From the NCBI RefSeq assembly GCF_026151205.1, contig NC_087080.1, forward strand, positions 12,757,837 through 12,821,836: 64,000 nucleotides of DNA, written 5' to 3'. Made by a program: the position numbers and the translations under genes. The notes under the pieces were generated by a model. It made no database searches. It saw only the letters and a program-made list of their open reading frames with translations, and was not told the origin of the DNA. Below, piece by piece: positions 3,643 through 40,841 of the stretch; the stretch's first letter is position 1; every line of letters starts with the position of its first letter. The stretch comes from Bolinopsis microptera. Taxonomy: Eukaryota > Ctenophora > Tentaculata > Lobata > Bolinopsidae.

Positions 3643-4515
3643 TCAGTCCTTACATATATTGTCGTCACTAAGATCGTCCAAAGAAGCGAGCATCAGAGCG
3701 GAACTGTATTTACGCTGGGAGTTTGAAGACAAGCTAGTAGCTATGGAGTTAGATCGACTTCGAGCTAAGGAGTGAGTCGACATAGCGAAAAGGCTGTATC
3801 TTCGCTTTGGTTCCAACTTGCCGGGAGCGGGGCTTGATTTATCTTTCTTCTTCTTCCTAAAGCTCATGTGAAAAGTCTTGAGTATTTTTTGCTTCTTTTT
3901 CTTCTTTTTCTTGAGTAAAGTGCCCGTGCCTTCTAGACTTGCTACTCCACTGTCGTCCGATTTCTTTGATCGAACAGATTGCCGTGTCTGTGGTGACACT
4001 TCAGTTATAGTAATTGCAGGTTGCTCTGTTTCTAAAATATTATCAAGATCTGAAACCTCGGCAGTAATGTTTGGGTCTGAACCATCTGGATCAGGGACTA
4101 TAGACTGTTCAGTCTTGTCATCACCAGTGTTCTCAGTGATGTCTTCCTGAGGAAGAGTGCTATAAGCGTTTTCATAGAATCCTTCGTGACTAGCCAAACT
4201 ATTGACGGACATCCGATCCAATGGAACAGGTGACAAAAACAAAGGTATTTTAGGCAAGCCGTGTTGGCTGTAACGTACTGAGCTATCTATTGCTATGTAA
4301 ACCTTTCTTAGACTGGGATCCGAGGAGAGAGAGATCCCATCGATCTCATCCACCGCGTACAATTCAACCGGCTGGGGTTCAGTGGCTCCGTATCCTGCCT
4401 GATCATCGACTATCGCTCCGTTCTCATCAAACTGATCTTCTCCGGAGCAGTTGGAGCCGCCACTTCTACGGCGCTTTCTGGGACAGCAAAGGAAGAAGCC
4501 GAGGTTTACCATCAT
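3643..4515 (-). CDS. Family gene A: MARCKS-like architecture, Cys-anchored, Lys-rich (290 aa)
   Basis: Not a family I recognise; paralogue of B (7785-9266), C (20133-20879) and D (22446-24077). The coding exon opens just after an acceptor at 4531-4532, so the ATG at 4515 follows a probable 5' UTR intron. N-terminus MMVNLGFFLCCPRKRRR (hydrophobic, two Cys, then basic) looks like an S-palmitoylated membrane anchor. The middle is Ser/Asp/Glu-rich and low in complexity. Near residue 205 SDDSGVASLEG leads to a block KKKKKKKQKILKTFHMSF and then RKKKKDK, that is, Lys clusters with interspersed Phe. The protein ends LMLASLDDLSDDNICKD, almost identical to gene B. The order of acyl-type N-terminus, acidic disordered region and basic-aromatic block recalls MARCKS, but the similarity is architectural only. 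Real coding sequence is very likely; function is inferred. Confidence 0.85.
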   Translation of the reverse strand: MMVNLGFFLCCPRKRRRSGGSNCSGEDQFDENGAIVDDQAGYGATEPQPVELYAVDEIDGISLSSDPSLRKVYIAIDSSVRYSQHGLPKIPLFLSPVPLDRMSVNSLASHEGFYENAYSTLPQEDITENTGDDKTEQSIVPDPDGSDPNITAEVSDLDNILETEQPAITITEVSPQTRQSVRSKKSDDSGVASLEGTGTLLKKKKKKKQKILKTFHMSFRKKKKDKSSPAPGKLEPKRRYSLFAMSTHSLARSRSNSIATSLSSNSQRKYSSALMLASLDDLSDDNICKD

Positions 4516-4530
4516 GACACTTGCCAGTCG

Positions 4531-7500
4531 CTGTAACAATTGAATAAATTATGTTAAAAAGGGTTAAAACTGGATTAGAACGTGATCAAACTAGCGATTT
4601 CAAGTTTCGACTACTCAAACAAAAATCAAGATAAATCAAAGAGCTCTGCAAGGATCATACTGGAGCTGACATAAAAACGAAGTGACTTAATGAGCAAGTG
4701 GTTAAAAACAGATGATACGTGGACAGAACACAAGTAAACTATTTACACAAGTAGGCAATAGGCATTCCACTCGAGGAGTACTGAACGAGTAACGACTTTG
4801 TTTTCAGCAAGGACCCCCACCATCTCATGTTTCCTCTACATTAGTCCTATAAGCAGCTTATTTTGAGAAGAACACTCTGAGAGTTAATCTTGGCGTCTGG
4901 CACTCAACATTGCTGCTTCAAGTACAATGAGGCTTCAGAACAGTAGACGTGCGTCTGCTTTCATGGAAAATGATTTCACAGCCAAATAATTCTATGTGGT
5001 ATTTCACAACAGCAGAGGAAAGCAGAAAATAGATGTGTTATAATGGCAGTCACATTCATTGTGGTAGAGGTCAGTGTATCACGGGAGGGGCTTTGATACT
5101 TGCTAATGTATTTGAAGGGATGTTCTTGTACAGGTAAAGAATCCCTCGGTAGAGGGAAGAGAGTGAAAGTAATGGTAAACATTGTAAGTGCTTGATAATT
5201 TATTAACAATGTACTGTTATCATGGTGCAAGATCAGGCGCAGGTAACGTCATCAGTGAGTGGGATAGTCTCCCCCAAAGATTAAGTTTTAGAATTTAATG
5301 TTTAATTATTACCGCTTGCAACTGTGATTAGTGAAATACAATAGCAAAAGGTAGGTTCGGGGACAAAGAAAAAGGCACATTTAAATACAATAGACATTTA
5401 TACAAATGTTGGGAGGTTAATCAGATTCCACGAACACCTGCTGTTAGAATCCCACTAGGCAAGCAAAAACACATTCGACAGAAAAGGGAAAATTTCAAAC
5501 AATTAGCTGAGACTCCCATTAAGGCTAACACCGATGGATGTCTGCTTAGCGGTTGTGGCACAACGGCCGAAATTCGCACACTGTACATAGTGTCCAGTCC
5601 ACACCGAAATACATAACTTTAAGTTACTGTTAAGCAAAAGACAATGGTGCTTTGCAGACTTGCCAAGTTGCTACATCAAAATGGACCACACCGGTATAAG
5701 GTATTAAAAGGTACAATTAGCTCATTGATTGTATACTGACAATCAATCCCCATTACCCTAGGACGAAATATGAACCCAGTAACTCGTCGTTATATCATAT
5801 GTAGAGAGTAACTCTACGAAAGAGCGAAGGTTAGTTGCTATAAAGCTATAAGTTAATGAGGTATATTGATCGCTCCAAGAATATAATATTATATAATAAT
5901 AGTGTTAATCAACAAAGAAGTTATGAATATGATCGAACTCTATGTTGATAGTTTTCTTAACAAGTACTCATATTGTCGTCAAGCGTGGATATTATAGCCT
6001 GAACCACGTACCCCGCAGAGCTTCCCAATTATTCGGCTAAGTCTACCGGAGGAGGGAGTCAGGGAGTCTGACCAGAACGATGGTGGTCCCTTTTATATAT
6101 GTCGAATTAACAGAATAGCATTAACTCCTGTTAATAGCATTAACAGGAGTTTAATCTGAAGCCCCAAAAAGTAAAAAAAGTATCACTGTATTAGAATTTG
6201 GTGTGGAGTCGGTTTTGCAGCCAGTATATTCAGCGTAATGCTAATATTAGATGCAGTTCCTTGATCCTGGAGTCAGGACACAATCCCCAGTCCCCACTGG
6301 GATCGTGTCACCCTATAACCTGTCCCCCGTCCTTCGTCCGACTTTGTTATTCTCATTAAAATACGCTCACTCTGAACAAAGCTTCTAAAATATTAAAGTA
6401 CAATATAAAGATGTATGTGCGAAACAACGCAGCTTATTTCTAGAATAATGCAAATTCTGGAATAGAGCATGTCTAGAACGAACTCTCGTGTAAAACAACT
6501 ATGAGTAGTAAATAAGTCACCGTACAAAGTTGTTTAGACTTAGTGGATTGACAGACAATGCCAATAACTCTGTTATTGTCATCAAACAGAAACCATTTTC
6601 TTGTTAGTTAATTGAATTAGAGTAAAATCAAAATGTCCACCTTGGTGTTATGAAGTGTTCTTGCAATTTAACCGAAGGAAATTTAGTTTAATGGCTGACG
6701 CACGAAAAATATTTCATTACATATTACATAATGGATGATCAGATGATGCAGACTCTCGTTTTATGATTAGCAGCTTAGTCTTTAAGTCCTCTCCTCAAAT
6801 AGTGACTAGTGTGTACCAGATTTACTTAAATTTTATTATTTTTTCAATCATCCATTTTTTATTACTGGGCATATCCATTCAATTTGAGTTTTGTCGGCGA
6901 TGAGTAGTATTATTGAGGATTTAAAAATAACAACTCAATTTTTATGTAGAAAAACAAAATAACTTTCATACCCTGCATATAAGTTCTTCTACCAAACTAT
7001 TTCAAACCAATCAATAATTTTCATCATAATTTGTCCGAATGGTGTCTGGATCTATAAAGAAATTATTTGTTGTCAAAACGAATAGAAGTAACAAAATTTC
7101 CAGTCAAAAATATCATCTGAAGAAAGATATCATTTTGTTTTTTATTATTTATCTTGCTTACTGTTGCTTACATGATGTAAGCAACATCTATGGAATCAGA
7201 TGTATATATTTAAAACCACATTCCATGCAATGTCGCTCGACCGACATTAACTTTCTATATTTGACGAATAATAAAACGTTAGCAAAACTTGGAAGACCGC
7301 AGAGTAAAAGGTATAATACATATATCAACAACCCTTGTCTAATGTCTAGGATTAGCCATATTTAAATCATGACCAAGAAACGTCGAATTCTGAACCTCAG
7401 AACTCCGGACCAAATAAATCGCGGACCCGACCATCAAGGTTTAGGATTCTTGCGAAAAGTGCGGAAAATTTGATGGTTAAATCCCTGGGTGCCGGAATCA

Positions 7501-7784
7501 AATTCAACGTCTTAAAATCTGTCGCCGGACATATTTAGATGCATGGCTTGCATGGCTTGCATGCATAGCTATTAAATGTTATTTGAACTTATATGCTGAG
7601 CAAGCAAAAGTATGAGTACTCCATTCACAAATAATGATGCTTTCCTCTACCAGAGATAAAGCGAAACATTTATATAAACGTGACACAAAACAGATGTTGT
7701 TAATTGCTTTTAATTGCTTTTTACAATTGTATTATTTTACAGACGCTTTTTAAAAGATTTTGCAAATTGCAGATAATTAATTAA
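4531..7784. other. Intergenic / 5' region of gene A, no gene seen
   Basis: A 5' non-coding exon of gene A should lie here. A candidate is near 4831-4885, where CCTATAAGCAG is shared with the region upstream of gene B (9963-9973). ORFs at 4976-5230 and 7039-7365 have no supporting features. A short inverted repeat (taactcctgttaa / ttaacaggagttta) lies at about 6123-6152. Confidence 0.5.
5995..6075 (-). repeat. Fragment related to the SINE tail at 30.1-30.2 kb
   Basis: attcggctaagtctaccgga followed by ggag resembles attcggctgagtcgaccga followed by ggag at about 30157-30180, which is the body of the tRNA-derived SINE. The tRNA-like head is absent, so this is a partial copy. The similarity is short and could be a different member of the same repeat family. 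Confidence 0.4.
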
Positions 7785-9266
7785 TTAATCCTTACAAATA
7801 TCATCATCACTCAGATCGTCTAACGATGCGAGAAGTAAACTAGCACTGTATCTACTCTTTGAGTTTACTGACATGGTGCTAGAAGCAGCATCAGCGTCTG
7901 CTCCGAGTGTAGGAGTAGAAGCGCTGTAACCTGCCTGCTGCTGCACTAGCAACTTGTTCTTCTTCTTCTTCTTAAATTTGAACTTTTTAAATAATTTGAG
8001 TTTCTTCTTCTTTTTTGGTAGTCCAGCAGCATCAAGACTTACCATGCTGGTTGCGCTTTGAAGACTGACGGCGTCGTCAGAGAACACGGCTGATTGGCTT
8101 TTGTATCGAGGAGTAGTTGAAATATACTTATCAACCACAACCCCACTGTCGTCAGAAGTTTTCGATTTGATAGACTCTTTTTGCTGCAGATCAGGTGCAC
8201 TGTCAACTTCGATTGATGGGACAGGTTGCACAGGAACAGGCTCGGCTGCTTTCTTATGCTCGACCTGAGGAACACTGTACATCGGGTCTTCAAGATAAGT
8301 TTTGGGGCGTTTGTCCGGGCTTTTCCGGACTTCCTGACTTGCTGCAGAAGGGTCAGCGGGTTGTTCAGCAGCTGGTACCTCTTCTTCTACTTCTGCTGCT
8401 GAAGGCGCTTCCGTTATATCTTCTAGGGAAGCTGTACCGGACGTGCTCAGCATTTCTGTGGCGCTGATCCTCTTTATAGGCTGCCTATCAAGACTGGCTG
8501 TTTCTTCTTTTGACCAGCTCTTGACTGAAGATGATTCTGCTTGCAAGCTTTTAGCAGAGGGCGTTGCACTTGTTCTACTTACCCAGCTGTTTACTGAAGC
8601 TGTATCCTCACGAAGAGACATCCTGTCAGCTTGATTCGCTATAGGATCAAGTCTTCGGTCATTACAAGACCAACTGTCCAATGAAGAGGTATCACCAACC
8701 TTCTGCATCAGCTGTTCTCTAGAGGCAGAGACGTTAGTCAAACTGTAAGTCTCAGGATCCCCGAGAACATGGATCTCGCCTAAACTCGAACTAGATGATA
8801 TTACGGAGTTTTGGTATTGCTCCATTCTCTCTTCCTCGTCATAATTCTGTTCGGATAAAATTGATAAAGACTGAAGAGGCCTGGTGAGGGCTTCACCTTC
8901 CTCGTCAGAAGAGTCGCCATCAGGAACAGGAGAATAGCCTGCTGAATTTGTATTAATGTTCGGTTCATTTACACCATCCTGTTCAGTTGCCAATTCAACG
9001 TCCTTGGTTGCACCGTACTTCGCTCCGTCGCCGGTGATTTTATCATTTTCCTTCGCTCCGTTATACCCGGTCTGATCTTTAACTATTTTATTGTTGTGGT
9101 AATCATCGTCATCACTGCTGCTGGATTCGGAGTAGCTGAATGATCGGCTCCTGGTAGAACTGGCCCTGCTTCTGCTGTCGTCATCAATTGGCCGGCCTCT
9201 TCTCCGTATGCAGCAGAACCAGAAACAGGGAGCAAGACTGAGGAATCCCCCTGGGTCTTTTGCCAT
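7785..9266 (-). CDS. Family gene B: MARCKS-like architecture, longest intact member (493 aa)
   Basis: Unrecognised family; fullest member of the A-D group. Start chosen at the ATG at 9266, right after a strong acceptor (ctattttcag in gene sense); genes C and D have the same acceptor-TGGTTCATG layout. The N-terminus MAKDPGGFLSLAPCFWFCC then IRRRGR suggests a palmitoylated anchor. It continues with an Arg/Ser-rich then acidic disordered region, the modules ASREQLMQKVGDTSSLDSWS and SLREDTASVNSWVS, then SDDSGV, YKSQSAVFSDDAVSLQSATS, DAAGLP and KKKKKLKLFKKFKFKKKK, and ends YSASLLLASLDDLSDDDICKD. The Lys/Phe block is strikingly like the MARCKS effector domain, which binds acidic lipid and calmodulin and is regulated by phosphorylation. 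Ser before aromatic/Lys runs offers phosphorylation sites. Function is inferred only. Confidence 0.88.
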   Translation of the reverse strand: MAKDPGGFLSLAPCFWFCCIRRRGRPIDDDSRSRASSTRSRSFSYSESSSSDDDDYHNNKIVKDQTGYNGAKENDKITGDGAKYGATKDVELATEQDGVNEPNINTNSAGYSPVPDGDSSDEEGEALTRPLQSLSILSEQNYDEEERMEQYQNSVISSSSSLGEIHVLGDPETYSLTNVSASREQLMQKVGDTSSLDSWSCNDRRLDPIANQADRMSLREDTASVNSWVSRTSATPSAKSLQAESSSVKSWSKEETASLDRQPIKRISATEMLSTSGTASLEDITEAPSAAEVEEEVPAAEQPADPSAASQEVRKSPDKRPKTYLEDPMYSVPQVEHKKAAEPVPVQPVPSIEVDSAPDLQQKESIKSKTSDDSGVVVDKYISTTPRYKSQSAVFSDDAVSLQSATSMVSLDAAGLPKKKKKLKLFKKFKFKKKKKNKLLVQQQAGYSASTPTLGADADAASSTMSVNSKSRYSASLLLASLDDLSDDDICKD

Positions 9267-11831
9267 GAACCATGTACTGAAAATAGAACAGCGAGTTAGA
9301 ATGATAAATCTAAAGAATAACAATCAACATTACATATCAACATTTAACATATGCATTAAGACTGAACGGATAAAAATTTAAGGGGCATCTTTACGATTTG
9401 ATAACAGACAACTTCAGATTATTCACAAATTATTTTGGGTCGGAGAGAGGGTGTTACTCAAACTATTGGGTGATACGGGAGATTGACAATTACATTCATT
9501 AAGAATGATGGTGTTGGTCCCGACATGAACAATGAAGTGAATATTTCTACAAATATAATAGACAAAAGCAAATGTGACACGTATTATTGACGGACATTTA
9601 CACAATGAGTCACTAATACACGAAAAACTATAGAAAAATAGTGTTAGCAGAACATTGAAAAGATTCTATGGAACAACTGTAAGCAGTGAATGATACGTCA
9701 AGTAATTTTTGCGTTATATTTGAATTAAGATTTAATGATCAAATTGGTACTGATGACTGTGAAAAACAATGCAAATGTCAATAAATTGACTTTTCTCTTA
9801 AGGTTATACATAAAACGTGTGTTTTAATACTTTCTATACTAATACAAAACAATTACTTTGAAAAGCTGGATAAAATGTATTGAGTAATACTAATAATATA
9901 ACATCAAAACGTCGAATAATCCACATTAAAAACCTACCCATTAGTACGAAACCTATTGAGAAGCCTATAAGCAGGAACCTTCTCAACGCTCATCACGCAA
10001 TCTGCGGACCACCTCCTTAACTGCGCCAGTCGGATATCAAGTTCAAACCAAACAGATGAAATTGTCTACTTAGTTAATTAAAGTACCAAACAAACTGAGG
10101 GTTGTGCATATATTTCGAGATGATTCATCAATCAAGTCAAGTAGACGATTCTCTAAAGTCATAATTAACTAAATTCGTTAAAAATCGTCCTTAGTCCCGG
10201 ATTTCTTATTTTAATGTGGAGCACTGTCTCATCACCCTCATGAGAGAATGTATGATTAATAGTCCCACAGAATGAATTGCGAGAATGAAAGGACGATCGC
10301 GATTTATAGCTATAACATTGCTTAAGACTAAGAGCTACAACATTGTACAAGAGCCGGGAGAGAGCCGCCTAAGAGCTTTTTATGTGCCATATATAGGAAA
10401 CTAAGAGTTTATGCATTTGTAGCTACAACATTGTACAAGAGCCGGGGGAGCCAATCAAAAGCTTTAAGCTAACCAGAAGCTTTACACTCGAAATCTAAGG
10501 AGCAAACCACACTAGAAGGATCCTGTGCATCCCACATCTAACACAAGCCGCCTTAATAGGAACGTAGGGGAGTAACAAAGTAAGAAAAGGGGAACAACTA
10601 CAGTAAGCTGTACATAGGGCAACACGAACTTTAAAGGGTATGATCCGGTACAATAGAGCTTGATAATGAGTGTACCGCATGGTAAACGGCCGACTATAAC
10701 CGCGATTTCGTACACAAAACATTCGGGCGGGGAGTAGAGAAGGGAGGGTTGAAATTTTGACGTGAGTTGAATCATCTCGTGTTACACTTTGTAGGGAGGA
10801 GAAGAAAGGGCTAGAGTTTCTGAATGGTTGTAATTTTGAAAGTAAGAAAAGGCGAAAACAGCCACAGCAGGCTAAGGTAGCGCTGGGGTACTACAGCGTG
10901 GTGCGTCACCGGATATATAATTGCGATTAAGATTTAAGACTGAGTCTGAGAGTCTCACTAATTTAACGCGAACAGTGTGAAATAAGTACACCTTTAACCA
11001 AAAAGTAAATGCAAAACTTAAACTTCAGACTACAGATTGGTCATAGAAAATAAAGATTTGAGTATACGACCCACAGTATGATCGTATGAGCTTTCCGGGC
11101 TGCGCACACATAAGTAAATAAAATTTAAGTTGAGACACTTAGTGTAAAAGTAAAAATAAGAAAATATGAGTATTGAGTAACTTTTAAATTAATACATTGT
11201 TGTAATACGATGTTTAATTTTTCATGAGTGTACACTCTACAGTCCACAGCACTGCAAAACAATGAGTTGGGGCACAACAATGAGTAGGGGGAATTACTTA
11301 ATCAATTATAATTTTGACCAGCTGAATTAAACTCTTATTTATTCATAGTTTATAAGTTTATAAACTTTTAATAAATCACCGAATCAGAAATAGAGCATTC
11401 AAATTCTATGGAATTAAATGTTTAAGCATTGTTCATTACTTCACGAAAAAGGTATTCAAGACAGTTAAACAGATGCGCGCCCTGTAACTTGCTTTTGGTA
11501 TAATCTCGCTGTAACCTTCAACCATGTATCATAATATAATAAATAATAGTAAATTATAAATAGAACAATGAACATGTAACTCTTAGTTGTAGTGAACGGT
11601 GGATTTTGACGTATTGACCGCACGTTCCAGTCATTTTGTAGTGAACGTTATTGAACGTTTTTAGTGAACGTCAGTGATTATCAAAAACAAAAAATTATGA
11701 AAATAAACTTTTTGAAATCTTAATTTCCCCAACTGATAATTATCAATTTTCCCAAAATGAAGCAATCCTATTTCTGTGCACAAAAGATTAAGATTAAAAG
11801 GGTAATATTATTATCAATAAGTTATAAGGTA
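9267..11831. other. Intergenic upstream of gene B, no coding gene seen
   Basis: Holds the presumed promoter and 5' UTR exon of gene B; a candidate is near 9940-10020. A 26-bp direct repeat (agctacaacattgtacaaga then gccggg) occurs at 10331-10356 and 10420-10445. ORFs at 10495-10775 are low-complexity reading frames without support. From about 11580 the motif agtgaacgt recurs several times and continues after the element at 11832-12650. Confidence 0.5.
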
Positions 11832-12650
11832 CACGTACTCAAATTCGACACGCACTCTAGTTCGACACGTACTGTAGTTCGACAAACCCTAAGGTTCGAC
11901 TCTGTCGAACCAAAGCGCGCTACATGGACTCAAGTTCGACACGTACTAAAGTTCGACAAGAGAACTTCGACTGTCGAACTAGAGTTTTGAAATCTCCGGT
12001 CTCAAGCAACGATCCTTTACGATCGCTTGTAATCTATTCGTTTGCTTTCCACTTGTCTCATGCTGTTCAATTATGTGTGAATGTAATCTCTATAATGCAT
12101 ATTCCATATCTATGAACATTTAATTGTCCTCTACTCATAAGTTAATTGTTAGTTAGCAGAATTGTAGACTTAGCGGAGAGATAAAAGACTAACGTAGTTA
12201 CTCGTACTCCGTTTTATAGATCTTGATTGTAGAGTGCGCTATATAAATATCAACCACGTACCATACTTTTTATTATCACAAACGACTAGTAACCGAGTAC
12301 CGGTCTAGAGATTTGGCTGCTGAATCGAAAATAGTCGGATATCAATATATTTTCCTGTTAGCTAGACCAGAACTGAGTGGCAAACAGGAGAATTAAAACT
12401 ATACTGAAAGGTTCTGGAATTTCTAACCGCTCATGGTTGCTAGATGTCAGAAAATTTGTTTATCTGCCATTGAACCCTGTGATCCTATTATGAGGACCCG
12501 GCAATAGCCATTGGATCACAAGCAGAAACTATTTGTAGAACTAGAGTACGCTACCTGGACTCTAGTTCGACAAGTACCGAAGTACGACAGGGGCGATATC
12601 TGGCGAATTTAATTTGTCGAACTATAGTGCGTGTCGAATTAGAGTACGTG
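11832..12650. mobile_element. Non-autonomous DNA element with 35-bp terminal inverted repeats
   Basis: The left end (cacgtactcaaattcgacac onward to 11866) and right end (12616-12650) are inverted copies with about two mismatches in 35 bp. Internal copies of gttcgacacgtact and its complement occur near 11868, 11935 and 12565. The roughly 820 bp interior has no transposase ORF. Flanking DNA carries repeated agtgaacgt motifs on both sides (11590-11680 and 12690-12750), possibly an older host repeat split by the insertion. No clear target-site duplication. It could be a MITE. Confidence 0.7.
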
Positions 12651-15600
12651 AATCCTACTGAACACCACTAGTAATTTATCCATAACGTTCAGAACGTGCG
12701 ATGAGTTTTAGTGAACGTATGTACAGAATATTTTTAGTGAACGTTCCGTACGTGCATTACAACTAATTACATTGTAACTGCTAACGTCGCTGTTAAGTGT
12801 TAAACAGGTGCCACTGATTTACACGTTTAAATAGTTACAATAAATAGCTACAATAGTTATAAAGACTGCAGCTGTAGCTAATAAAGATCCATTAAATAGG
12901 TATCTAGGGGGTCGAGAACTCAGAACACACCTCATTATTTTATTTTTTTCGTATTTCCCGAACTCGTGAGAGCCAATCAAATATCTGAAGACTTCCTAAA
13001 AGTTAAAGGCAAGCGAGAGGATTGGGTTGGGCTGGGCCTGGCCTGACACACCCTCCTGGACATGGTTGAGCAAACTTGCTGCCTAGATCCGGGACTGCCA
13101 GACGTATATGCTACTCCGCACAGCTACTGCCCTCATACCAGAGTACCAAGATAAATAACCCAAAAAGCTACCTAAAAACTCTAGGAGGTACAACAAACGA
13201 GAGTGATTTAATGATTAAAAGTCTTTGTTAAAGTTGAAGTGAAACTATAAGATGATTTAAGATAACTAGATACGCTAACAACTGTACCAGCACAACAAAG
13301 GAATGTAATGATCACGTGACAGGATCAGTTTTACAACAGCAGGTGGGTCGAATAGCTAAGTGTTCAGTTACACATGGGGCTTCTAGATCCCTGGATATCG
13401 TGCCAGATGTTTAACCAGATCAATTTCACAGCAATTGCGCAATTAATTCTTTCCTGAAAATTATAATTGGACTTGAATGATCGTCGCCACGAGCTGTAAA
13501 GCATCATGGAAATAATACGTAGTCGTGCAAATGGCTGCTATGTTGTACGGTTCAGATCTATACAGTGACAGTAAATACAGAGTAACTGATCAGAGTCATG
13601 ACCGTTCTACTTACACTATTACTAAGAGGTTGACATTGCGTAACCTATAGGTCAGTGAACACGCAGAACGTAACAACACACCTTCGAAGCAGGAGAGTGT
13701 CATGTCCTGGAACTTAGAGATCTTCAAAGCACCTCAATTTTTATGAGATACCATAATCACAGTTTTCTGTAGCCAGATTGAGTCCCAGAATGTGTTATTA
13801 TGCCTTATATGTGTTCCAAACGGAATCTGTACTGTTGTCCAGGTTCACGTTGTCATTTTGTCAGGAAGCGAACTAATTTCTACAGTATCTATTGGACACG
13901 CCTTTAACCTGCTTTGCTATTAACACGGCTATATGACTCAAGTAGTACGTGGGGGATAACGGATATCTAACTCAAAGTTTCAACAATCTCGTCAGGAAGA
14001 AGAGAAAGGAATCAATCAAAGAGACCTTTACATTTATGGGTGTTTACATCTTGGTTATAAAAATGTTACCGAGTATTGGTGAAAACTAATAACTATAACA
14101 GAATTATGTTACAATTTGAGAAAAACTTTATGTGGGCTTTTGTACAGAAACTGTGGCTGAAAACTGAGAGTATGAATGACAACTTTTAGCAAACTTAACT
14201 TAAATTACCTTTTTGACAAGCGACCGTACATTCCTCTCCAAATGAATAGTGTCATAGCAACCAGCAAAATTTCGCAGATTTGTTGGCAACAAAAGTAATG
14301 CTGAGTGCCGTCTAGACGTCCTATCATGGCTTTTAAGTGTCCGTGACCAGCCTCAAGCAATTGTGATGGCAAAACAAAAGCACCCGAGCATGCTATAAAC
14401 TACAATTTTAATATTACTCGCAACTGAAAAGATGAAATTTACAATCTAAGGAGATATCAGAACAAAGGTTATCGGCTTCTCAGTGCAGTCTCGATCAAAT
14501 CAGCGGATATCTCAAAACAAATAAAACAAATAAAACAAATACCATTACTAGAACAAAACAGCTGATAAAACCGTAATTGGAACACAATAACCACAGATTA
14601 TGTACCAGAATACAGCACTGAGTACATTAGTATTATATACATTTGGGAGGTGGTGGCCCCTGCAATGTGTTGTCTATCACACTGAACAAAACACATTAAA
14701 CCACATTAAACCACTGAAAGTCTGCACTGTAAACAAGATGAAATATGTCTAAGGTTATGTCATTGTGTATAAACAACCTGTACTAGGGTGTGTGGACTGC
14801 TGAAACAGAGAGTTCGCTCTTTAAATTTAGCTCTTATTGTTCTTGAGAGTTACTTTTGTTGTGGAGCTTGGTATAAACAGATCGTTTGTGTGCAAACCTG
14901 TGAATTAGCACATGGAGAGCTGGACACAGGCTCACAGGCTGGGTGAGAGTGGAAAGTGTGTGCACGTTTTGCAACACAGCTCATGAGTGCTCAATCTCAA
15001 ACAATACCACCCACTGGATCTACTCGGTTTATCCACCCTAACTGTATCCACCGGAATGTAGAGGCGAAAATCAAAAGTAGAAATTGAGTGTGATAATTGG
15101 TTTGCATTTAAAGAATATTAGGAAAAGAAAGAAATAAGCAGGTAACGGAATTAGGCAGAACATTATCAGTTTCCAACAATTTCACTAACCCCACCAGAAC
15201 AATACCAGGACCCAGGTGAGTGTAGAATGTAGTTAAATAGCTCCCACGTCTCCTAATCTGCTCTCATGAGGGGGTTACATGGGGTTCTGGGTTCACATTC
15301 TAAAGCAGCTTTTGTGTCCACTTGACTTCACACTTCACATCACCCACATACAGTATACACTGTGTCTGTAAGTACCATGTTCTATCAACTTAACATGTAC
15401 TCAACACTCAAGTCTCTATGATGGAAAATGATAAAATAGACAAGACCATAGCTTATGATTACCAAAACTTGCTAGTTTCACTCTAAGATCACCTGATGAG
15501 TGGACACTGAAAGTGATATTGGACTCGGTCCAACGCCTTACATCCGCTCTAAGGAATTCTGTCAAGAGCTCAGAGCTGGATAAGCTCGCTGCTGCTCTGA

Positions 15601-16127: not shown

Positions 16128-16182
16128 TGAAAACGTCATCACAATGAAAAACGTCATCACAATGAAAAACGTCATCACAATG
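16128..16182. promoter_or_regulatory. Three tandem CRE-like half-site units
   Basis: Three near-perfect 18-bp units (aaaaacgtcatcacaatg) run head to tail, and a fourth half-unit (cgtcat) follows. Each unit contains TGACG (as CGTCA), the core of ATF/CREB half-sites. It lies about 4 kb upstream of gene C. A regulatory role is inferred; it may be only a short minisatellite. Confidence 0.4.
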
Positions 16183-16540
16183 CGTCATAAAACAGATAAA
16201 CCTAATTCACTGAGCTCTTTATTCAAACAAATTAGCTCATCACGCTACATCATCAGACCAGTATAATAAAGTAACAAAGTAATAAAGTGATACTAATAAC
16301 ACCACAGCTCTTTACCCTACAGCCACGAAACACCATACCTTACCAGAAACAACAGTAAGAGAGGTGACGAGCAGGCTCCTCGAAATGTGAACTGGGAAAT
16401 TGGGGGACAGAGCGAGCTACTTTAGCTGGGAGAGGAGCAGGTGCACAAACCCCACTGGAGGAGCAGATTATATGCACAGTGCACAGTGCACAAAGTCCGC
16501 TCTTTTCTCTGATCCAGGTCACGATCTCAGGGCTCATTGT

Positions 16541-16630
16541 CCCACAACACTCTCTAGTCTCTCTAGTCTCTCTAGTCTCTCCCTCATGTGCTGGTGTGTG
16601 TGTGTGTGTGTACGTTCGTGTGTGTGTGAT
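16541..16630. repeat. Microsatellite patch (TCTCTAG and TG)n
   Basis: A run of ctctctagt units is followed by (gt)n broken by acgttc. The open frames crossing it in both directions are composition artefacts. Confidence 0.85.
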
Positions 16631-18112
16631 CATGATCTGATGTTAACATGTGTTCACGAAAATAAATTAGTCATGATATTAATTCGTGGTGTCAGGTCTC
16701 TTACATTTATACGGCTCATAATAACAATTACATTTAGAGTCTTTAATAAGGTGTATATTAATGTTTAAAAGTGTCCTAAGTGATTAAGTTTAACTTTGAG
16801 GACTCTGGAATGTGTGATAACAAAGGGAACAGCTGCAAACAAAACTAGGAGGAGTTAACATCGAGTACCGACTGAAAGAACTCAACACTGAACGAAACCA
16901 AGATAGACTTGAAGCAACAGAAAAAAACTCAAGCTCCGTAACCAAAATTCCTTAGAAAACTAAAAACCTTAAAAAACTAAAAACCGTCCTTGGGACTTAA
17001 ATAAAGTAAATGTATCAAGCAACAACATCTTGCTAACGATCAGCTGAGGCCGAACATACCAGAAAAAATACGGCCCTGTTGACGTGTCAGATTTGACGGA
17101 GCAGCACCAACGAGTTAGTGTGGACTTTGTCGACATATGCTAAAATATTCGGGCTGCATTTGTTGAGTTGCTACACTAGTTTACTACATATTTGGGATAT
17201 TTAATGTAGCACATGACTTGTATTTTATCACTTACTGGTTGGTACATTAACTTTAATTTGGTACTGATATATCTTAGATAAAACTCTGTCAACATCTTTA
17301 AATCAGAAATCGTGACTTTTAAGAGATTAAGGATCCGATATTATAGGATACAGTATCAAGGATGAAAAGCGTATTCTGTTTCCCCCCTTTCTCCTATCTC
17401 ACGTCCCATAAAATACAGTCAAATTTGCGAACAGCCAATAGGCTTTGTTCATCTATTATCGTCTGTCAGTTCTTCAGTAACCTTTAATAAGTTATAGTCT
17501 GACAGGTACTCATATTAAATGTTATCAACAACCTTTTATCACCCACAAACTATCCCCTGTTTCAGGTATTTACTTGCGAGACATTGGAATGTGTTGCATG
17601 GGAAACTTCAGCAGTGGGGTAGATATTATACCTTCTGGTTTTTAAAGTCGGTATGCATCAGGAAACAAGTATCAGGGGTCGTTACGGAGGCTCTGAAGTC
17701 TGTTTTTGTGTTTCAATGTCAGTCCCCACCTTCATATCAGATCTAATACAAGGTAACCGAACCTGGACGGTTGTAAAGGACCGCTATTGACGTTTCGGCG
17801 CCCGAATTCTGAAATATTGTGTACATCTGAACTGAAATTAACATGGAACTATTCTCGAAACTAATCAAAAATGGTGCCTTAATTCAGTAAATACACGATG
17901 GAGCTGAAGCTATTGAATAAAGATAACTTCATCATACTCATCTGTATCAATACAGCATTAAATCATGGGAAAATTATATATCATTAAGAATGTATTATGA
18001 ATGGGTTCTAGACCCCATAGAACACAGCTTCGTTATTGTAGAATATTTCTTTCCCACACAATAAACACTGTGTTATAGTCTTTGCTTAAAAGTATGATAA
18101 TTGACATTGCTT
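16631..18112. other. Intergenic upstream of gene C; upper part resembles a gene C/D flank
   Basis: No gene is supported. The stretch from about 17830 to 18110 (caaaaatggtgccttaattc, acacgatgga, then an aataaa-rich segment and ttgctttctttgtat) is a diverged copy of the DNA between genes C and D (about 20890-21045 and 21855-22060). It therefore looks like the 3' flank of a lost or unrecognised extra family copy. Confidence 0.5.
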
Positions 18113-18226
18113 TCTTTGTATGTCTATATATTATGTCTATATATTGAAGTTTCACTCGATTTCAGTCCCTGCCCTTCTTGATTTGCCGGTGTATAAATTA
18201 TTAAACGTTTAGTTGTTCTGATTTAG
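18113..18226 (+). repeat. About 115-bp direct repeat flanking a transposon insertion
   Basis: tctttgtatgtctatatatt continuing to tgttctgatttag is repeated almost exactly at 19946-20061, just upstream of gene C. The two copies bracket the transposons at 18278-19931. It is either an older tandem duplication in the gene C 5' region, split by insertion, or a duplication made with the insertion. Confidence 0.8.
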
Positions 18227-18277
18227 TGAAGATATAACAAATATACATATATATATATATTGCTTTCTTTGTATGTA

Positions 18278-19612
18278 CTCTAGTAGCAGGGAGAGGTTGA
18301 GTGTGCACTTCACTGTACAGAGTTTTTTTGATACTGAATCGGGTTAAATATGTCATTGGTAACTCAAATCACCGAACGGCACATGTTGTGTCGCTAGTTT
18401 CAACCCTGTCTAGGTTGATGGATAGTGCTAGAATTTGCAGGTGCTGGTGATAGCTGAACAGAGTAGGGATAAGTCTGAGGTTGCTGGATAGGGCTAGAAC
18501 TTTCGGGTGCTTATAGTGGTAGCTGAACAACAATTATTGGGTGTTGGTGGAAGCTAGATAAAACAGGAAGTAGCATTCAGAGATTGCTAGAAAGAGCTAG
18601 AATGGAGTAGCAGAATTTAAGGAAACTAGAAGTGGATTCTACTACATGAGGTTGGATTGGAGTTGATTAGCCATAACAGCCAAACAGTGCTGGAGAGAGC
18701 CCAACTTGTGGTAACTGGTAAGACCGGGATCCCGGCTTAACCCCGATCCCTAATCCCGTTCCCGGTATTAATCCCGGTCCCGGCAATTTTTCTCAGTCCC
18801 AACACTTTTTCCCAGTCCCGGCACTTTTTCCCAGTCCTGGCCAAAAAAGCAGTCCCGGTCGAGTCTTGGCTTTAACCGTCTTTAGTCTTTGCCGTGCTGC
18901 AAGTAAAGTATCTGTAAGACTTTTTTAGCCCGGGATACCAAAATTAGGTATAATATGTTTGATGTTAATATTTTAGGATGCACGAAAGTTAAAACAGTTT
19001 TTAATGAATATCTCCAAAACTAAGCACTATAAACCCTATGTTGCTTTATAGCTTGTATATAAATATGACCTTTGCAGTTAGTTTGAGCTAAAATAAAGGC
19101 CCTACAACGTTCAGAAGCCGAGATACACAAGTCATATATTTGCGCCTGAGGATAATTTATAAATTTCCCCCCTAGGGTTGGAACTACTGATAGAAATTGC
19201 GTAACTTATCAATTCTGATCCAGAATGACCTTACAAAGGACCTGGTTTCTAGAAAAGCTGTAGACACCAAACTGCATACTCGATTTCAATTAGCTTCTAG
19301 AGAGTTTTTCTGGATTGTTTCGAAAAGTAAGCATTTTGGGCCTTTATAACCTTTATAGTGCCAAGATAAACATGTGCATTGCAGTCATTTTAAGCCAAAC
19401 TCTGAGTCTCTAAAACCTTCAGAAGCTGAGATACAGATTTCCCATATATGCGCCTAATGTGAAATATGGGTGTGGCCCCCACAGGGTTGGGACTAGCGAC
19501 ACAACATGTGCCGTTCGGTGATTTGAGTTACCAATGACATATTTAACCCGATTCAGTATCACAAAAACTCTGTACAGTGAAGTGCACACTCAACCTCTCC
19601 CTGCTACTAGAG
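18278..19612. mobile_element. DNA transposon, 121-bp terminal inverted repeats, TA target duplication
   Basis: The left terminus 18278-18398 (starting CTCTAGTAGCAGGGAGAGG) and right terminus 19492-19612 are inverted copies of one another. TA precedes the left end (18276-18277) and TA follows the right end once the nested insertion is removed (19941-19942). The interior holds tandem cccggtcccgg-like and cccagtcc motifs around 18725-18860 and degenerate direct repeats (agatac and gcgcct with agggttgg) at 19110-19180 and 19430-19490, but no transposase ORF. TA duplication fits Tc1/mariner-like or related superfamilies; it is non-autonomous. It lies about 0.5 kb upstream of the gene C start. Confidence 0.82.
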
Positions 19613-19931
19613 GGGGGGGCCAACCCCCCAAAAAGCCCCGATTTCTAGATTTTTCGGATTTTCGATATGTGTAGGGCCTTTTGGGGCCCTAGAATTAACT
19701 TCAATTTCATCAAGTTTGATATATGCTAAGTGCTTTAATGATATTATCTGACTACTTGCACAGTACTTTTATGTTTATTTGAGTGTATTTACATGGAAAT
19801 TATGGTCCATAAACACTATCAAATAGTGGTCAGGGTCAAAAGGCCCCAAAAGGCCCCGATTTCTAGGGCCCTTTTCGGATTTTCGATATGTGTGGGCCTT
19901 TTGGGGCGTTGGCCCCCCCCCCCCCCCCCCC
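19613..19931. mobile_element. Small G/C-ended MITE nested in the larger transposon
   Basis: Termini are inverted repeats of about 26 bp (GGGGGGGCCAACSCCCCAAA and onward). They are bracketed by a perfect 9-bp duplication ctactagag (19604-19612 and 19932-19940), which is also the end of the outer element's right repeat. This shows a later insertion into the outer element. Inside, a segment of about 50 bp (CCCCGATTTCTAG with CGGATTTTCGATATGTG) is present twice in direct orientation. A 9-bp duplication suggests Mutator-like elements, but long G and C runs make the exact ends uncertain. Confidence 0.78.
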
Positions 19932-20132
19932 CTACTAGAGTAATGTCTTTGTATGTCTATATATTATGTCTATATATATTGAAGTTTCGCTCGATTTCAG
20001 TCCCTGCCCTTCTCGATTTGCCGGTGTATAAATTATTAAACGTTTAGTTGTTCTGATTTAGATATAAATGATTACTTTTATTCTGTATTCCTGTATAACT
20101 TTACTTGCCGGTCCATTTTCAGAGCCTGGTTC

Positions 20133-20879
20133 ATGGAAAAAGACACTTATGGATTTCTTAATTTTTCACCCTGTAACTGTTATGCGTTTTTCTGCTGTAA
20201 AGAAGTTCAAGAAGTTGAAGAAATTACTGTCAGCATCTCCGAATCCAGCATCTCCGAATCCAGCATAGATGAATCTGTTATATCGTCTGTTTCGAGTATA
20301 GCCGAGATTGAGCCAGAGCCTGTTGAGCCTACTGAAGTGTACACTTTGACGCATGTCTACGCATCTAAAGAACAATTACAAGCGCTGGTTGGGAATACCG
20401 CTTTAGTGGATAGTTGGGATCGTCTAGCCCTCCGAAAGAATCCTTACACAAGAAATGAAGGTACGAGTTCTTCTGATCAAATTTACAGTGGAAGTGCAGT
20501 TGGAAGTTTAACTGATACCACCCTTGATCGATTCAAAAGCCGAGAAGATCCTCATACCAGAAATGAAGTTTCAAGGTCCTCTGATCAAATTTACAGTGGG
20601 ACTGTAGTTGGAAATTTAACTGATACCCCCTATGATCGACGCAAAAGCCAATCCGCCGTGTTTTATGACAATGAGGCCACCATTTTTCAAAATTCAACCA
20701 GTACATTAAGCGTTGATGCCGCAGGACTATCAAAAAAGAAGAAAAAATTTAAATTCCCCAAAACGTTCAAATTTAAGAAGAAGAAGAAGAAGAAGAACTA
20801 TTCGCTGATGCAGCAGGAGCAACAGAGCGACTACATGAGTGTTTCTCAAAATCCCGGTGCAAAACTCACTGATGACTGA
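20133..20879 (+). CDS. Family gene C: MARCKS-like architecture, short member lacking the tail (248 aa)
   Basis: Paralogue of A, B and D. The exon follows an acceptor (ttttcag, ends 20122), with TGGTTCATG as in B and D; start at that ATG. N-terminus MEKDTYGFLNFSPCNCYAFF then CCKEV keeps the Cys cluster. A Ser/Glu-rich region precedes ASKEQLQALVGNTALVDSWD, matching the B/D module. A roughly 36-residue unit (YTRNEGTSSSDQIYSG and HTRNEVSRSSDQIYSG) is duplicated in tandem. Then RRKSQSAVF, SVDAAGLS and the Lys/Phe block KKKKKFKFPKTFKFKKKKKKK. The C-terminus ends NPGAKLTDD, so the LASLDDLSDDxICKD tail of A and B is missing. It may be a diverged functional copy or a decaying one; the long uninterrupted frame argues for constraint. 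Confidence 0.82.
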   Translation: MEKDTYGFLNFSPCNCYAFFCCKEVQEVEEITVSISESSISESSIDESVISSVSSIAEIEPEPVEPTEVYTLTHVYASKEQLQALVGNTALVDSWDRLALRKNPYTRNEGTSSSDQIYSGSAVGSLTDTTLDRFKSREDPHTRNEVSRSSDQIYSGTVVGNLTDTPYDRRKSQSAVFYDNEATIFQNSTSTLSVDAAGLSKKKKKFKFPKTFKFKKKKKKKNYSLMQQEQQSDYMSVSQNPGAKLTDD

Positions 20880-21049
20880 ATCTATTCAGAAATAATCAAA
20901 AATGTTCTTGAAAAAAAACATTGCGTTAAAACCGTGAAATTAAATGAAAATAACTCTTTGGATAAGGCCACCAAATAATTCATCTGATTTAATTTTTCGA
21001 TGTCAAGAAGGGAATGGTGCTTTAATTCATTAACTACACGATGGATCAG

Positions 21050-21775
21050 GGGTGTAGGAATGATTTTCTTCACGAGGGGGCCAAAATGTTAGAGTTTCTA
21101 AAATTTAGCACATGCTTTGCGCCACAGCTTGAATTTCATATCATAGCGACAATTTCATAACAGCTAAACGTTCAGTGTCACCCATGCCTGTAAAAAGTTT
21201 TGAGTTTATGGCAGGATGGCCAAAGCGAAAGCTGCATCTTGTCCTAATTCTTTTGGGCAGGTGGATACTATACTAATACCGAATTTGTATAGTATCCACC
21301 TAACTGGGCAAAAGGCCTAACTGAGCAATTTGGCAATAGAGATCATTTTAAACACAGTTTCAAGAACGATTCAAATAATACAATTACAATAATATTAGGG
21401 CCTGCAAGCAGCTCTTTCGAAATAAGTGTAGCTCGAAAAAGGTATGCATTGTATTCAGAATTGAAATCTAGCAATGTGAAATGATAATTCGAGCAAATCT
21501 TTAAAAATATGCTTACAGTAATTATAGCTCTCACTCTCACAGAGGGTGCAAGGAGGGAGGATATGGAACAAATTTTGGAAAATTTGTTTTAAGGAATGAA
21601 TTCTAGCAATGAGGAATGTAGATTTGTACAAGGGGCGACTATCGTGCATTTAGACTATGCAGCTCAGACATAATAGGCCAAATTAGCCAATTAGGCCAAA
21701 AAAGTTGGCCCCATTTCGCCCCTTGCCCAGATTTTATGGGGGGGGGGGGGAGGTCGCCCCCCTCTTCCTACACCC
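21050..21775. mobile_element. MITE-like element with GGGTGTAGGAA ends
   Basis: GGGTGTAGGAA at about 21050 is mirrored by TTCCTACACCC ending at 21775, next to GGGGCC- and GGCCCC-rich subterminal sequence and a G14 run. The interior (ORFs at 21343-21649) has no recognisable transposase. It splits a stretch between genes C and D whose two sides match 17.83-18.11 kb. No convincing target-site duplication. Confidence 0.6.
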
Positions 21776-22445
21776 ATGCAATGGATTCTGTTTAAAAACT
21801 ACACGTGATATAACCGGTTTTATGTAGCAGTATGTCATATAATAGGGGGTATGAATAATGAATGTGTTTATAATCCCATTGAATGGCTCCTTTTATAAAT
21901 ATTCTTTTGTAGAAAAATTTTTCCTTATTACAATAAAGACAGTCCCACTTCAAGCTGTGTGTAGCTTTCAGCAGGGTGTTTTTATTGTGGTTATTGCTTA
22001 ATAGCATAATATTGTTTACTTTGTATATCGAAACTTCACTTTGTGACGTATTATCAACAGTCTGAAAGCTTATAAACGTAACTCTGTAAAAGAAGAGTCA
22101 ATATAACTCTAAGCTCCGTATCCAGAATTGTTTCGTTTTTACATTTGTTGTAGAGTTTATCAGTATCTTTGTACGTCTAATTCTTATTATATACGCTCGT
22201 AAATTATATTATTACATTTTCTTTATTATATAGCTAGTTTCTATTGTATTAGTATATCCCCGTAATATTGGGTTCACCGCCAGAATTGTGAGGAAACTAT
22301 AATCTAGTGTGGAATAAGAATCTTATAGGGCAGTATTTCGCAGTGTGAGCTGTCACCATAATTCCAGTAAATGAAACTAATTATTCTGTACGTTGTAGAC
22401 TAAGTTGTGAACCTTACCCATCAGTCTATGTTCAGTTCCTGGTTC

Positions 22446-24077
22446 ATGGCAAAAGATCCTGGTGGATTTCTCAGTCTTTCAACCTGTTTTCAGTTTCTGC
22501 GGATAGGAGTCCGACGAGCTGACGAACTCAGCGAAGATGACGATGAGCAATGCCAAAATTATGTTATATCGTCTAGTTCGACTATAGAGCATGTTGAGAA
22601 ATACAGTTTGACAAATGTGTGGGCATCCCGAGAGCAGCTGGAAGTGAAGGTTGGTGATACCTCTTCAGTTGACAGCTGGTCTTTCAATGAACAAAGACAG
22701 GGCCCTGCGACAAAACAAGCGAGGTCTTCTCTTCGAGTGGAGTCAGAAGTGATACCAACTTCTGCCAAGAGTGGAGCTAAGGTTGGAAAGTTAACTCCAA
22801 CTCCCCTTCCATTAAAAAGCCAATCTCTCGTGTTTTCTGAAAACGTTGACACAATCAGTCTTCAAAGAGCAACCAGCACGACCAGTGTTGATGCCGCTGT
22901 ACTACCAAAAAAGAAGAACAAACTCAAATTACCAAAAAAGTTTCAATTTAAGAAAAAGAACAGTTTGCTAATGCAACAGCAGGCGGGCTATAGTTCATCC
23001 ACGCCTACACTCAGAAACACAGACGTTCTGAGTACATCTGCATCAGCTTCTCTAAAAAATATAAACGAAGAACAATTGGCTGCACGAGTGGGAAACACGC
23101 CACCCAAGACACCACCCGAAACTTATCTTGAGGACCCGATATTCACATACAGAGTTCCTCAATACGTCAAGAATAAGCAAGCGGGCGAACCTGAACAAGT
23201 TCCTGTCCATGTGCATCATGTCCCATCAATCAAAATAGATAGCTCACCAACTGATTCGCAGCCTAAAGATTCGATCAAATTGGAAACTTCTAAAGACCGC
23301 GGGGTTGTGGTTAAAAATTTATTTTTGAAGTTCAAAAATCTATTTCAACAAACCTCAACCTCATTAGAAGATATAACGGAAGAACCATCAGTTGCAGAAA
23401 TGGAAGAAAGTTCATTCGTTGAGGATAAGCAAGCTGCCAAGACTCCGAAAGACGACATCGGAGTTGAGATTAAAAATTTATTTTCGACGTTCAAAAATCT
23501 ATTTCGACAGACTTCATTAGAAGATATAACAGAGGAACCTTTGGACGAACCAAAATACATTGTTTCTCACGTTGAGGATACATCAAAAAATTCAGACCAC
23601 AGAAGGGCTGTGGAAAAAAAGGTTCTTTCAAACCTTCCACGATTCAGTCTTCAAAGTTCAACCAGCACGATGAGCGTTGATTCTGTTGGACTACCAAAAA
23701 ATAACAAGAAACTTAGCTTATCCAAAAAGTTTCACACAGAATCAAAATATTCTGCTGACGAAAACGGGGATGTAGTTGGAAAGTTCATTTCAACTCCACC
23801 TCGATACAAAAGTCAATCAATCTTGTTTTCTGCTGACGATGACACATTCAGTCTCCGAAGTACTGTCAGTACCATGAGCCTTGATTCCACTGGGCTACCA
23901 AAAAAGAAACTCGAGTCATTCAAAAGGCTCTCATTCAAGAAGAACAAGTTGCTAGCGCAGCAACAGGCGTGCTACAGTGCGTCTACCCCCACACTCAGTA
24001 AAGATGTGAATACATTATCCAAGAGCAATTCGCTCAAACTTAGAAATAGTAGGTACAGCGTTATGCTGCAATTTTAA
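22446..24077 (+). CDS. Family gene D: MARCKS-like architecture with internally duplicated modules (543 aa)
   Basis: Paralogue of A-C. The exon follows an acceptor at 22434-22435 (atgttcag) and TGGTTCATG; ATG at 22446 chosen by agreement with B and C. N-terminus MAKDPGGFLSLSTCFQFLR keeps one Cys of the cluster. ASREQLEVKVGDTSSVDSWS matches B. The FS-rich module plus a Lys/Phe block occurs three times: KKKNKLKLPKKFQFKKK, then a weakened copy ending NNKKLSLSKKFHTES, then LPKKKLESFKRLSFKKNK. A second unit, KNLFxxFKNLFxQTS with SLEDITEEP, is present twice (about 23310-23400 and 23470-23545). The protein stops at NSRYSVMLQF, at the point where A and B continue LASLDDLSDDDICKD, so the tail is lost. 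Signs point to unequal crossing-over inside the gene. Confidence 0.85.
   Translation: MAKDPGGFLSLSTCFQFLRIGVRRADELSEDDDEQCQNYVISSSSTIEHVEKYSLTNVWASREQLEVKVGDTSSVDSWSFNEQRQGPATKQARSSLRVESEVIPTSAKSGAKVGKLTPTPLPLKSQSLVFSENVDTISLQRATSTTSVDAAVLPKKKNKLKLPKKFQFKKKNSLLMQQQAGYSSSTPTLRNTDVLSTSASASLKNINEEQLAARVGNTPPKTPPETYLEDPIFTYRVPQYVKNKQAGEPEQVPVHVHHVPSIKIDSSPTDSQPKDSIKLETSKDRGVVVKNLFLKFKNLFQQTSTSLEDITEEPSVAEMEESSFVEDKQAAKTPKDDIGVEIKNLFSTFKNLFRQTSLEDITEEPLDEPKYIVSHVEDTSKNSDHRRAVEKKVLSNLPRFSLQSSTSTMSVDSVGLPKNNKKLSLSKKFHTESKYSADENGDVVGKFISTPPRYKSQSILFSADDDTFSLRSTVSTMSLDSTGLPKKKLESFKRLSFKKNKLLAQQQACYSASTPTLSKDVNTLSKSNSLKLRNSRYSVMLQF

Positions 24078-32671: not shown

Positions 32672-40841
<8,170 letters not shown>

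Follow-up and report, generated by a model that had tools for sequence, protein, structure and literature searches.

What is the group of four related genes that lies within a 64,000-nucleotide (nt) stretch of the genome of the ctenophore Bolinopsis microptera (NC_087080.1, positions 12,757,837 to 12,821,836, forward strand; hereafter the window), and how might its proteins work? An earlier note on this DNA had described the genes, here called A to D, as a local family with a MARCKS-like architecture and without homology elsewhere, and had suggested a separately evolved membrane switch. We find that A to D are a real, diverged gene family that has been duplicated locally. Our best reading of the proteins is that they are lipid-anchored polybasic membrane proteins of independent origin; their acylation, lipid binding, release, expression and 5' ends are what we infer.

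All four frames are present at the positions and on the strands given in the earlier note, and they are related to one another by blastp, tblastn or blastn:

3643..4515, minus strand: gene A coding exon, 290 amino acids (aa); open frame, C-terminus homologous to that of B.
7785..9266, minus strand: gene B coding exon, 493 aa; open frame.
20133..20879, plus strand: gene C coding exon, 248 aa; open frame.
22446..24077, plus strand: gene D coding exon, 543 aa; open frame.

Since A and B are read from the minus strand and C and D from the plus strand, the cluster consists of two divergent pairs, with about 1.56 kb between the stop codon of C and the exon of D. Two nearby non-family stretches gave a local stop rate of 0.066 per codon, at which the chance of such open runs from a given point is 2.6e-9 for A, 2.6e-15 for B, 4.6e-8 for C and 8.5e-17 for D; a chance origin of the four frames was rejected on these figures. 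Protein comparison by blastp joined the pairs B-D, B-C and C-D (best E 9.7e-33), and A was tied to B by a tblastn match of the final 100 aa (E 1.4e-7) and by blastn over 78 nt (E 3e-10); in a whole-protein alignment, D was 59% identical to B, C 43% and A, taken with an 8-residue leader, 35%. B, C and D are under coding constraint, as non-synonymous divergence (dN) was lower than synonymous divergence (dS) in all nine blastp-aligned B-C, B-D and C-D blocks of at least 25 codons (dN 0.29-0.56; dS 0.57-2.3, one value saturated), a comparison for which A had no block long enough and whose ratios are rough, some segments being counted against more than one partner and the blocks being picked by similarity. 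Differences at codon positions 1, 2 and 3 numbered 55, 50 and 112 for B-D, 24, 20 and 36 for C-D, and 7, 2 and 11 for A-B, with only a slight third-position excess for B-C (21, 19 and 26). Outside the frames, different flanks had only short repeats in common (blastn, E ≤ 1e-3): one of 33 nt, linking the B-C spacer to the region ahead of D, and one of 39 nt, linking the regions downstream of A and of D.

We then asked how far the family extends. When the B. microptera genome (264.65 Mb, 232 contigs) was searched singly with A, B, C and D, every match listed fell within C9:12.761-12.782 Mb, the counts being lower bounds, which bears out the local nature of the family, and profile scans of 3479 window frames gave no fifth copy, other matches (E 0.06-1) being taken as chance. 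Pfam and NCBIfam offered no named family as a match: none of the four proteins had a Pfam match by hmmscan at E ≤ 10 or an NCBIfam match at E ≤ 1. Against the PDB, B gave no match at E ≤ 1 and A gave three chance-level matches (best E 1.1); C and D were compared with the PDB only through the profile of the core module shared by B, C and D, which gave one chance-level match (E 0.85). With B as query, viral and prokaryote contigs returned 67 and 159 pattern matches, respectively, none of which was confirmed as a relative. A search of the B. microptera genome for MARCKS itself found none, a result of little weight, since its control genomes also gave none, and the literature on MARCKS in ctenophores held nothing relevant by title. 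Lack of homology elsewhere thus stands for the genome itself, Pfam, NCBIfam, the PDB and, for B, viral and prokaryote contigs, a coverage that excludes animal proteomes; within the databases and genome searched, the family appears to be unnamed and confined to one cluster.

The relatedness of the four proteins resides in a small number of recognisable parts, located by profile, alignment or direct inspection of the sequence:

4465..4515, minus strand: A N-terminus MMVNLGFFLCCPRKRRR, with twin Cys ahead of a basic patch (sequence; weak profile match).
9195..9266, minus strand: B N-terminus MAKDPGGFLSLAPCFWFCCIRRRG, Cys14, 18 and 19 with a basic patch (sequence).
8661..8753, minus strand: B ASREQL...DSW module, 31 aa (profile), which holds the sole helices of the B model.
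20334..20426, plus strand: C ASKEQL...DSW module (profile).
22596..22688, plus strand: D ASREQL...DSW module (profile).
7905..8141, minus strand: B core module, with KSQS box, SxDxxGLP, Lys/Phe block and QQQA-Y (profile).
20601..20855, plus strand: C core module (profile).
22776..23012, plus strand: D core module, copy 1, with its Lys/Phe block at 22908-22961 (profile).
23631..23753, plus strand: D core module, copy 2, with a degenerate block (profile).
23769..23996, plus strand: D core module, copy 3, with block KKKLESFKRLSFKKNK (profile).
7788..7853, minus strand: B C-terminus ...ASLDDLSDDDICKD, common to A (profile/alignment).

In profile comparison, B, C and D have recognisably similar N-termini, among other common parts. 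A and B carry twin Cys with basic residues (LCCPRKRRR and FCCIRRRGR), in line with the earlier note, which had found the Cys/aromatic N-terminus with its basic residues clearest in these two; in C, which begins MEKDTYGFLNFSPCNCYAFFCCKEVQ, the Cys are present (FCCKEVQEVEE) but the basic run is not, and D begins MAKDPGGFLSLSTCFQFLRIGVRR. The A N-terminus matched weakly (E 1.8e-4) against a profile that includes A itself, the next non-family frame following at E 0.06. The 31-aa module AS[RK]EQL...DSW is conserved in B, C and D, and so is a core module of about 80 aa, made up of a KSQSxxFS box, an SxDxxGLP-type linker, the Lys/Phe block and a QQQ-Y tail, which occurs once in B, once in C and three times in D. 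Both recurring modules of the earlier note were therefore recovered in B, C and D but are missing from A, which is linked to the family by its Cys/basic N-terminus (weakly), an SDDSGV stretch (with B, E 0.003), its Lys block and its C-terminus, ASLDDLSDDxICKD, common to A and B.

Further motifs are scattered over the chains. D contains a doubled segment, KNLFxxFKNLF...SLEDITEEP (23300-23520), amphipathic-looking by eye and not found in C, and B carries a related SLEDITE stretch. A has a DSGxxS sequence (DSGVAS, 3937-3954), resembling the beta-TrCP degron by consensus, whose counterpart in B is DSGVVVD and which D has lost. Tyrosine stretches in A (YENAYSTLPQ, 4147-4176), B (YLEDPMYSVPQ, 8265-8297) and D (YLEDPIFTYRVPQY, 23124-23165) we take to be possible docking tyrosines.

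The remainder of the chains is Ser-rich (14-16% of residues), with net protein charges of -2 for A, -18 for B, -4 for C and +11 for D. An AlphaFold2 model of B, built from a four-row alignment, had a mean predicted local distance difference test score (pLDDT) of 44.1 and a predicted template-modelling score of 0.17, with 395 of 493 residues below a pLDDT of 50, in keeping with a disordered chain in B. Helices appeared in this model only at residues 183-190 and 194-197, both within the ASREQL...DSW module, and the sole ten-residue block with a mean pLDDT above 70 was 181-190. No 19-residue window in the four proteins exceeds a mean hydropathy of 0.97; transmembrane helices usually lie above this value, so an ordinary transmembrane helix is not expected.

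The only predicted order in B coincides with a module conserved in B, C and D, which would suit membrane-tethered docking scaffolds: function would reside in the ASREQL...DSW module together with the Ser/Tyr motifs, the Lys block serving for membrane targeting alone, with neither lipid sequestration nor release. Lack of a phosphorylatable residue in the B block would fit such a role, but A is without the module and no partner or known motif was identified, and we consider this explanation quite unlikely.

The part that prompted comparison with MARCKS is the Lys-cluster/Phe block, which was indeed found in all four proteins, once each in A, B and C and three times in D; those of A, B and C, examined by shuffle test and site scan, are as follows:

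3838..3912, minus strand: A Lys/Phe block KKKKKKKQKILKTFHMSFRKKKKDK, with one SFR site.
7953..8015, minus strand: B Lys/Phe block KKKKKLKLFKKFKFKKKKKNK, with no Ser/Thr.
20733..20798, plus strand: C Lys/Phe block KKKKKFKFPKTFKFKKKKKKKN.

Net charges of the blocks A, B, C, D1, D2 and D3 are +14, +15, +15, +10, +5 and +7, respectively, and [ST]x[RK] sites occur in four of the six (A, C, D2 and D3). Each block was scored against the MARCKS effector sequence and compared with 5000 composition-preserving shuffles; with p values unadjusted, three of the six resembled the effector beyond composition, namely A (p 0.015), C (p 0.0028) and D3 (p 0.015). Judged by this comparison, the likeness is partly one of composition and partly one of pattern. 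The block also has a likeness to cationic antimicrobial peptides; an antimicrobial role was rejected, because the block lies inside a long protein and no signal peptide was seen by eye.

Blocks of this kind invite a second explanation, according to which A to D are nuclear or nucleolar proteins whose Lys blocks serve as nuclear-localisation or nucleic-acid-binding signals and whose Cys are not acylated. Runs of 5-8 Lys are typical of localisation signals, although such signals do not need the interleaved Phe and Leu, and D has kept its block though most of its Cys/basic N-terminus is lost. The MARCKS effector block itself contains a localisation signal (PMC6478813, in excerpt). A nuclear role would nevertheless leave the recognisable common N-termini of B, C and D unexplained, and we regard it as unlikely.

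Each coding exon follows an acceptor-like site, located by site scoring:

4531..4532, minus strand: putative splice acceptor AG (trans- or cis-), 15 nt before the A start.
9277..9278, minus strand: putative acceptor AG, 10 nt before the B start.
20121..20122, plus strand: putative acceptor AG, 10 nt before the C start.
22434..22435, plus strand: putative acceptor AG, 10 nt before the D start.

The single coding exon behind an acceptor, as claimed in the earlier note, is matched by a YAG 15 nt (A) or 10 nt (B, C and D) before the ATG, with 9-11 pyrimidines in the 14 nt ahead of it in all four genes; the four sites are, however, not independent, belonging to related copies, and an equally good site within 20 nt precedes 277 of the 2211 ATGs in the window. 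An acceptor before a lone coding exon would most simply be a trans-splice site or the end of an intron in the 5' untranslated region (5'UTR), either of which would add the 5' end just before the ATG and so account for one coding exon, and on the sequence a cis-spliced 5'UTR intron fits as well as trans-splicing. This genome carries ctenophore-type spliced-leader genes. Using the Hormiphora spliced leader (plus an added tail) as query, we obtained two genomic matches (L018 and L019), each a leader ending AATTTGAG followed by GTAAG, and a pattern made from them found 107 sites at no more than two mismatches (47 forward, 60 reverse), as against 0 for a reversed control. The sites listed lie mostly in arrays on C3 (13.511-13.551 Mb), C5 (21.342-21.352 Mb) and C13 (12.78-12.95 and 15.24 Mb), where the spacing of these spliced-leader RNA-like genes is roughly 591 bases (C3) or 860 bases (C5). 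A leader ending AATTTGAG is reported for Hormiphora and Mnemiopsis, and in Hormiphora it was present on 56% of Iso-Seq reads, a lower bound according to the authors (PMC8527503, in excerpt).

Taken together, these features suggest a mechanism that we favour tentatively, giving it slightly less than an even chance, in which a palmitoyl-Cys anchor is combined with a Lys/Phe block that sequesters acidic lipid on the inner leaflet and with a Ser-rich docking stretch. The mRNAs would receive their 5' ends just before the start codon by spliced-leader trans-splicing (or through a 5'UTR intron). The N-terminal Cys would be palmitoylated and, together with the aromatic residues and, in A and B, the basic patch, would hold the chain at the plasma membrane. 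Some 150-490 residues further on, the Lys/Phe block would lie at the inner leaflet and sequester acidic lipids such as phosphatidylinositol 4,5-bisphosphate (PI(4,5)P2), and the Ser-rich, probably disordered stretch in between would bear short docking motifs. Calmodulin may be able to release the block in all four proteins; phosphorylation within the block may do so in A, C and D only.

A number of observations count against this reading, some bearing on the proteins and some on their 5' ends. D has a single Cys at its N-terminus, no twin Cys, and a basic run that is broken. Nor is the body acidic in every copy: the Ser/acidic middles of the earlier note are Ser-rich throughout, with 'acidic' fitting B (-18) and not D (+11). 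Disorder is likewise best supported for B, which alone falls on the disordered side by charge-hydropathy, A, C and D lying marginally on the folded side, and the AlphaFold2 result for B is itself weak evidence, resting on four sequences. The blocks of B (p 0.080), D1 (p 0.48) and D2 (degenerate, p 0.22) did not exceed their shuffles at 0.05, so the MARCKS-like block of the earlier note holds beyond composition for A, C and D3 and not for B, whose block that note had quoted. The B and D1 blocks also lack any Ser/Thr, which makes a MARCKS-type phosphorylation switch impossible inside them; a membrane switch of that type cannot be family-wide. As to the 5' ends, B has, 6 nt ahead of its start, an ATG in another frame, which is awkward if the B exon is the first coding exon and speaks against trans-splicing and a 5'UTR intron alike; B, C and D have exactly the same TGGTTCATGG, which would be compatible with coding WFM as well; and no spliced-leader copy was found in the window. 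Among 11 readable actin-family starts, moreover, one (L044) had a clear close acceptor and one (L050) a doubtful one; the starts were read by eye, with 9 of 20 rows dropped as off-strand, internal or without Met. Finally, the comparison of upstream regions for common exons, given next, has little power for short exons.

Several of these 5' features would be accommodated if the four exons were the last exons of membrane receptors with other exons upstream, the CC and basic residues forming a juxtamembrane segment. The frames stay open upstream through the acceptor, the identical TGGTTCATGG would read WFM, and the out-of-frame ATG of B would cease to matter. We compared 319 sense-strand frames of at least 25 aa from the four upstream regions by tblastn, which gave 34 between-region matches at E ≤ 0.05, nine of them with E < 1e-5. 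These nine (E as low as 5e-19) were between the B and C upstream regions, which are one 10.9 kb spacer read on two strands, and they coincide with a 132-nt inverted repeat of this spacer, in several frames; weaker ones lay mostly in a repeat array near 11.7-12.7 kb. The D upstream region matched the B-C spacer over 14 aa (E 0.005) and, in antisense, the A upstream region over 21 aa (E 0.007). No clear coding exon common to the upstream regions was found, the matches being read as repeat DNA, and 10 of the 13 upstream sense frames of at least 70 aa had no Pfam match at E ≤ 0.1, the other three not having been scanned. Receptor tails would further have to fit the ~1.56 kb between the C stop and the D exon, and A would need another splice phase (15 nt rather than 10 nt before the ATG), and we judge this explanation improbable.

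Elsewhere in the window, the spacer upstream of C holds a 98% inverted pair (18278-18409 / 19481-19612) and a 93% direct pair (18125-18226 / 19960-20061), one copy of which ends about 60 bases before the C exon; both pairs are possibly mobile-element or duplication remains. In the repeat array at 11724-12668, the units match one another in several frames and on both strands. An RNase H-like frame at 30611-31171 (Pfam RNase_H, E 5e-6) is probably a retroelement remnant. Neighbouring genes encode an AMP-binding enzyme (221-616), C2H2 zinc fingers (34543-36863) and a BAG domain (57175-57543), and 51870-52916 gave a weak match, below the cut-off, to a major facilitator superfamily transporter.

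How does the favoured lipid-anchored, lipid-sequestering protein compare with known systems? GAP-43, MARCKS and BASP1, the GMC group, have unrelated primary structures and have in common acylation, a cationic PI(4,5)P2-binding effector domain and calmodulin binding (PMC6478813, in excerpt). As these three are unrelated in sequence, more than one origin of the GMC plan is already accepted, and the present family, which may work like the group but showed no homology to it, would add one more.

The family resembles MARCKS and MARCKSL1 in the length and pattern of its Lys/Phe block (beyond composition in A, C and D3) and in a chain that is probably disordered, but it is without Gly2 and without the MGXXXS/T myristoylation signal. 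If the named ATGs are the starts, the proteins begin MM (A), MA (B), ME (C) and MA (D), and since no copy has Gly2, MARCKS-type myristoylation is excluded. Also unlike MARCKS are the three block copies of D and the absence of Ser/Thr from the B and D1 blocks, and we know of no MARCKS counterpart to the ASREQL...DSW module. The MARCKS profile (PF02063) matched none of the four proteins at E ≤ 10 by hmmscan and, by their sequences, A to D are not members of MARCKS. What survives of the proposed MARCKS-like plan is an anchor-like N-terminus (A and B), a Ser-rich body and a Lys/Phe block.

For the N-termini of A and B, GAP-43 (neuromodulin) appears to be the better comparison: it too has twin Cys beside basic residues near the N-terminus, as well as a cationic block. 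Palmitoylation of GAP-43 takes place at Cys 3 or 4, and its effector is an IQ motif (PMC6478813, in excerpt). In A to D the effector would instead be a Lys/Phe block far from the N-terminus; on reading the four sequences, we found no IQxxxRGxxxR motif, nor was there a Pfam match. BASP1 (CAP-23) offers the acylated polybasic plan by analogy. It differs in having its effector block at the N-terminus. It is, moreover, myristoylated at Gly2 (PMC6478813, in excerpt). Adducin differs in that it lacks an acyl anchor and has a large folded head of the class II aldolase-like type; Pfam matched no such head domain in the four proteins. The MARCKS-related tail of adducin is alike in that it includes, at the C-terminus, a stretch rich in Lys for which sequestration of PI(4,5)P2 has been proposed (PMC4731495, in excerpt).

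By analogy, then, the family may act like the GMC proteins, with the differences that there is no myristoylation, that the blocks of D are repeated and that the B block has no phosphosites. A broader proposal, that ctenophores evolved their own acyl-anchored, lipid-buffering electrostatic-switch proteins from unrelated sequence, convergent with the GMC group and in variants with one or three blocks and with or without phosphosites, is one we put forward as conceivable but rather doubtful. As it stands, the locus holds an unnamed, locally duplicated gene family with an inferred function. A case has been made for ctenophores as the sister group of the remaining animals (PMC10232365, in excerpt), and if the mechanism were true, the combination of acyl anchor, disordered chain and Lys/Phe block would have been reached more than once in animals, with natural variants, the B block without a phosphosite and D with its three blocks, that would allow charge sequestration to be told apart from phosphorylation switching.

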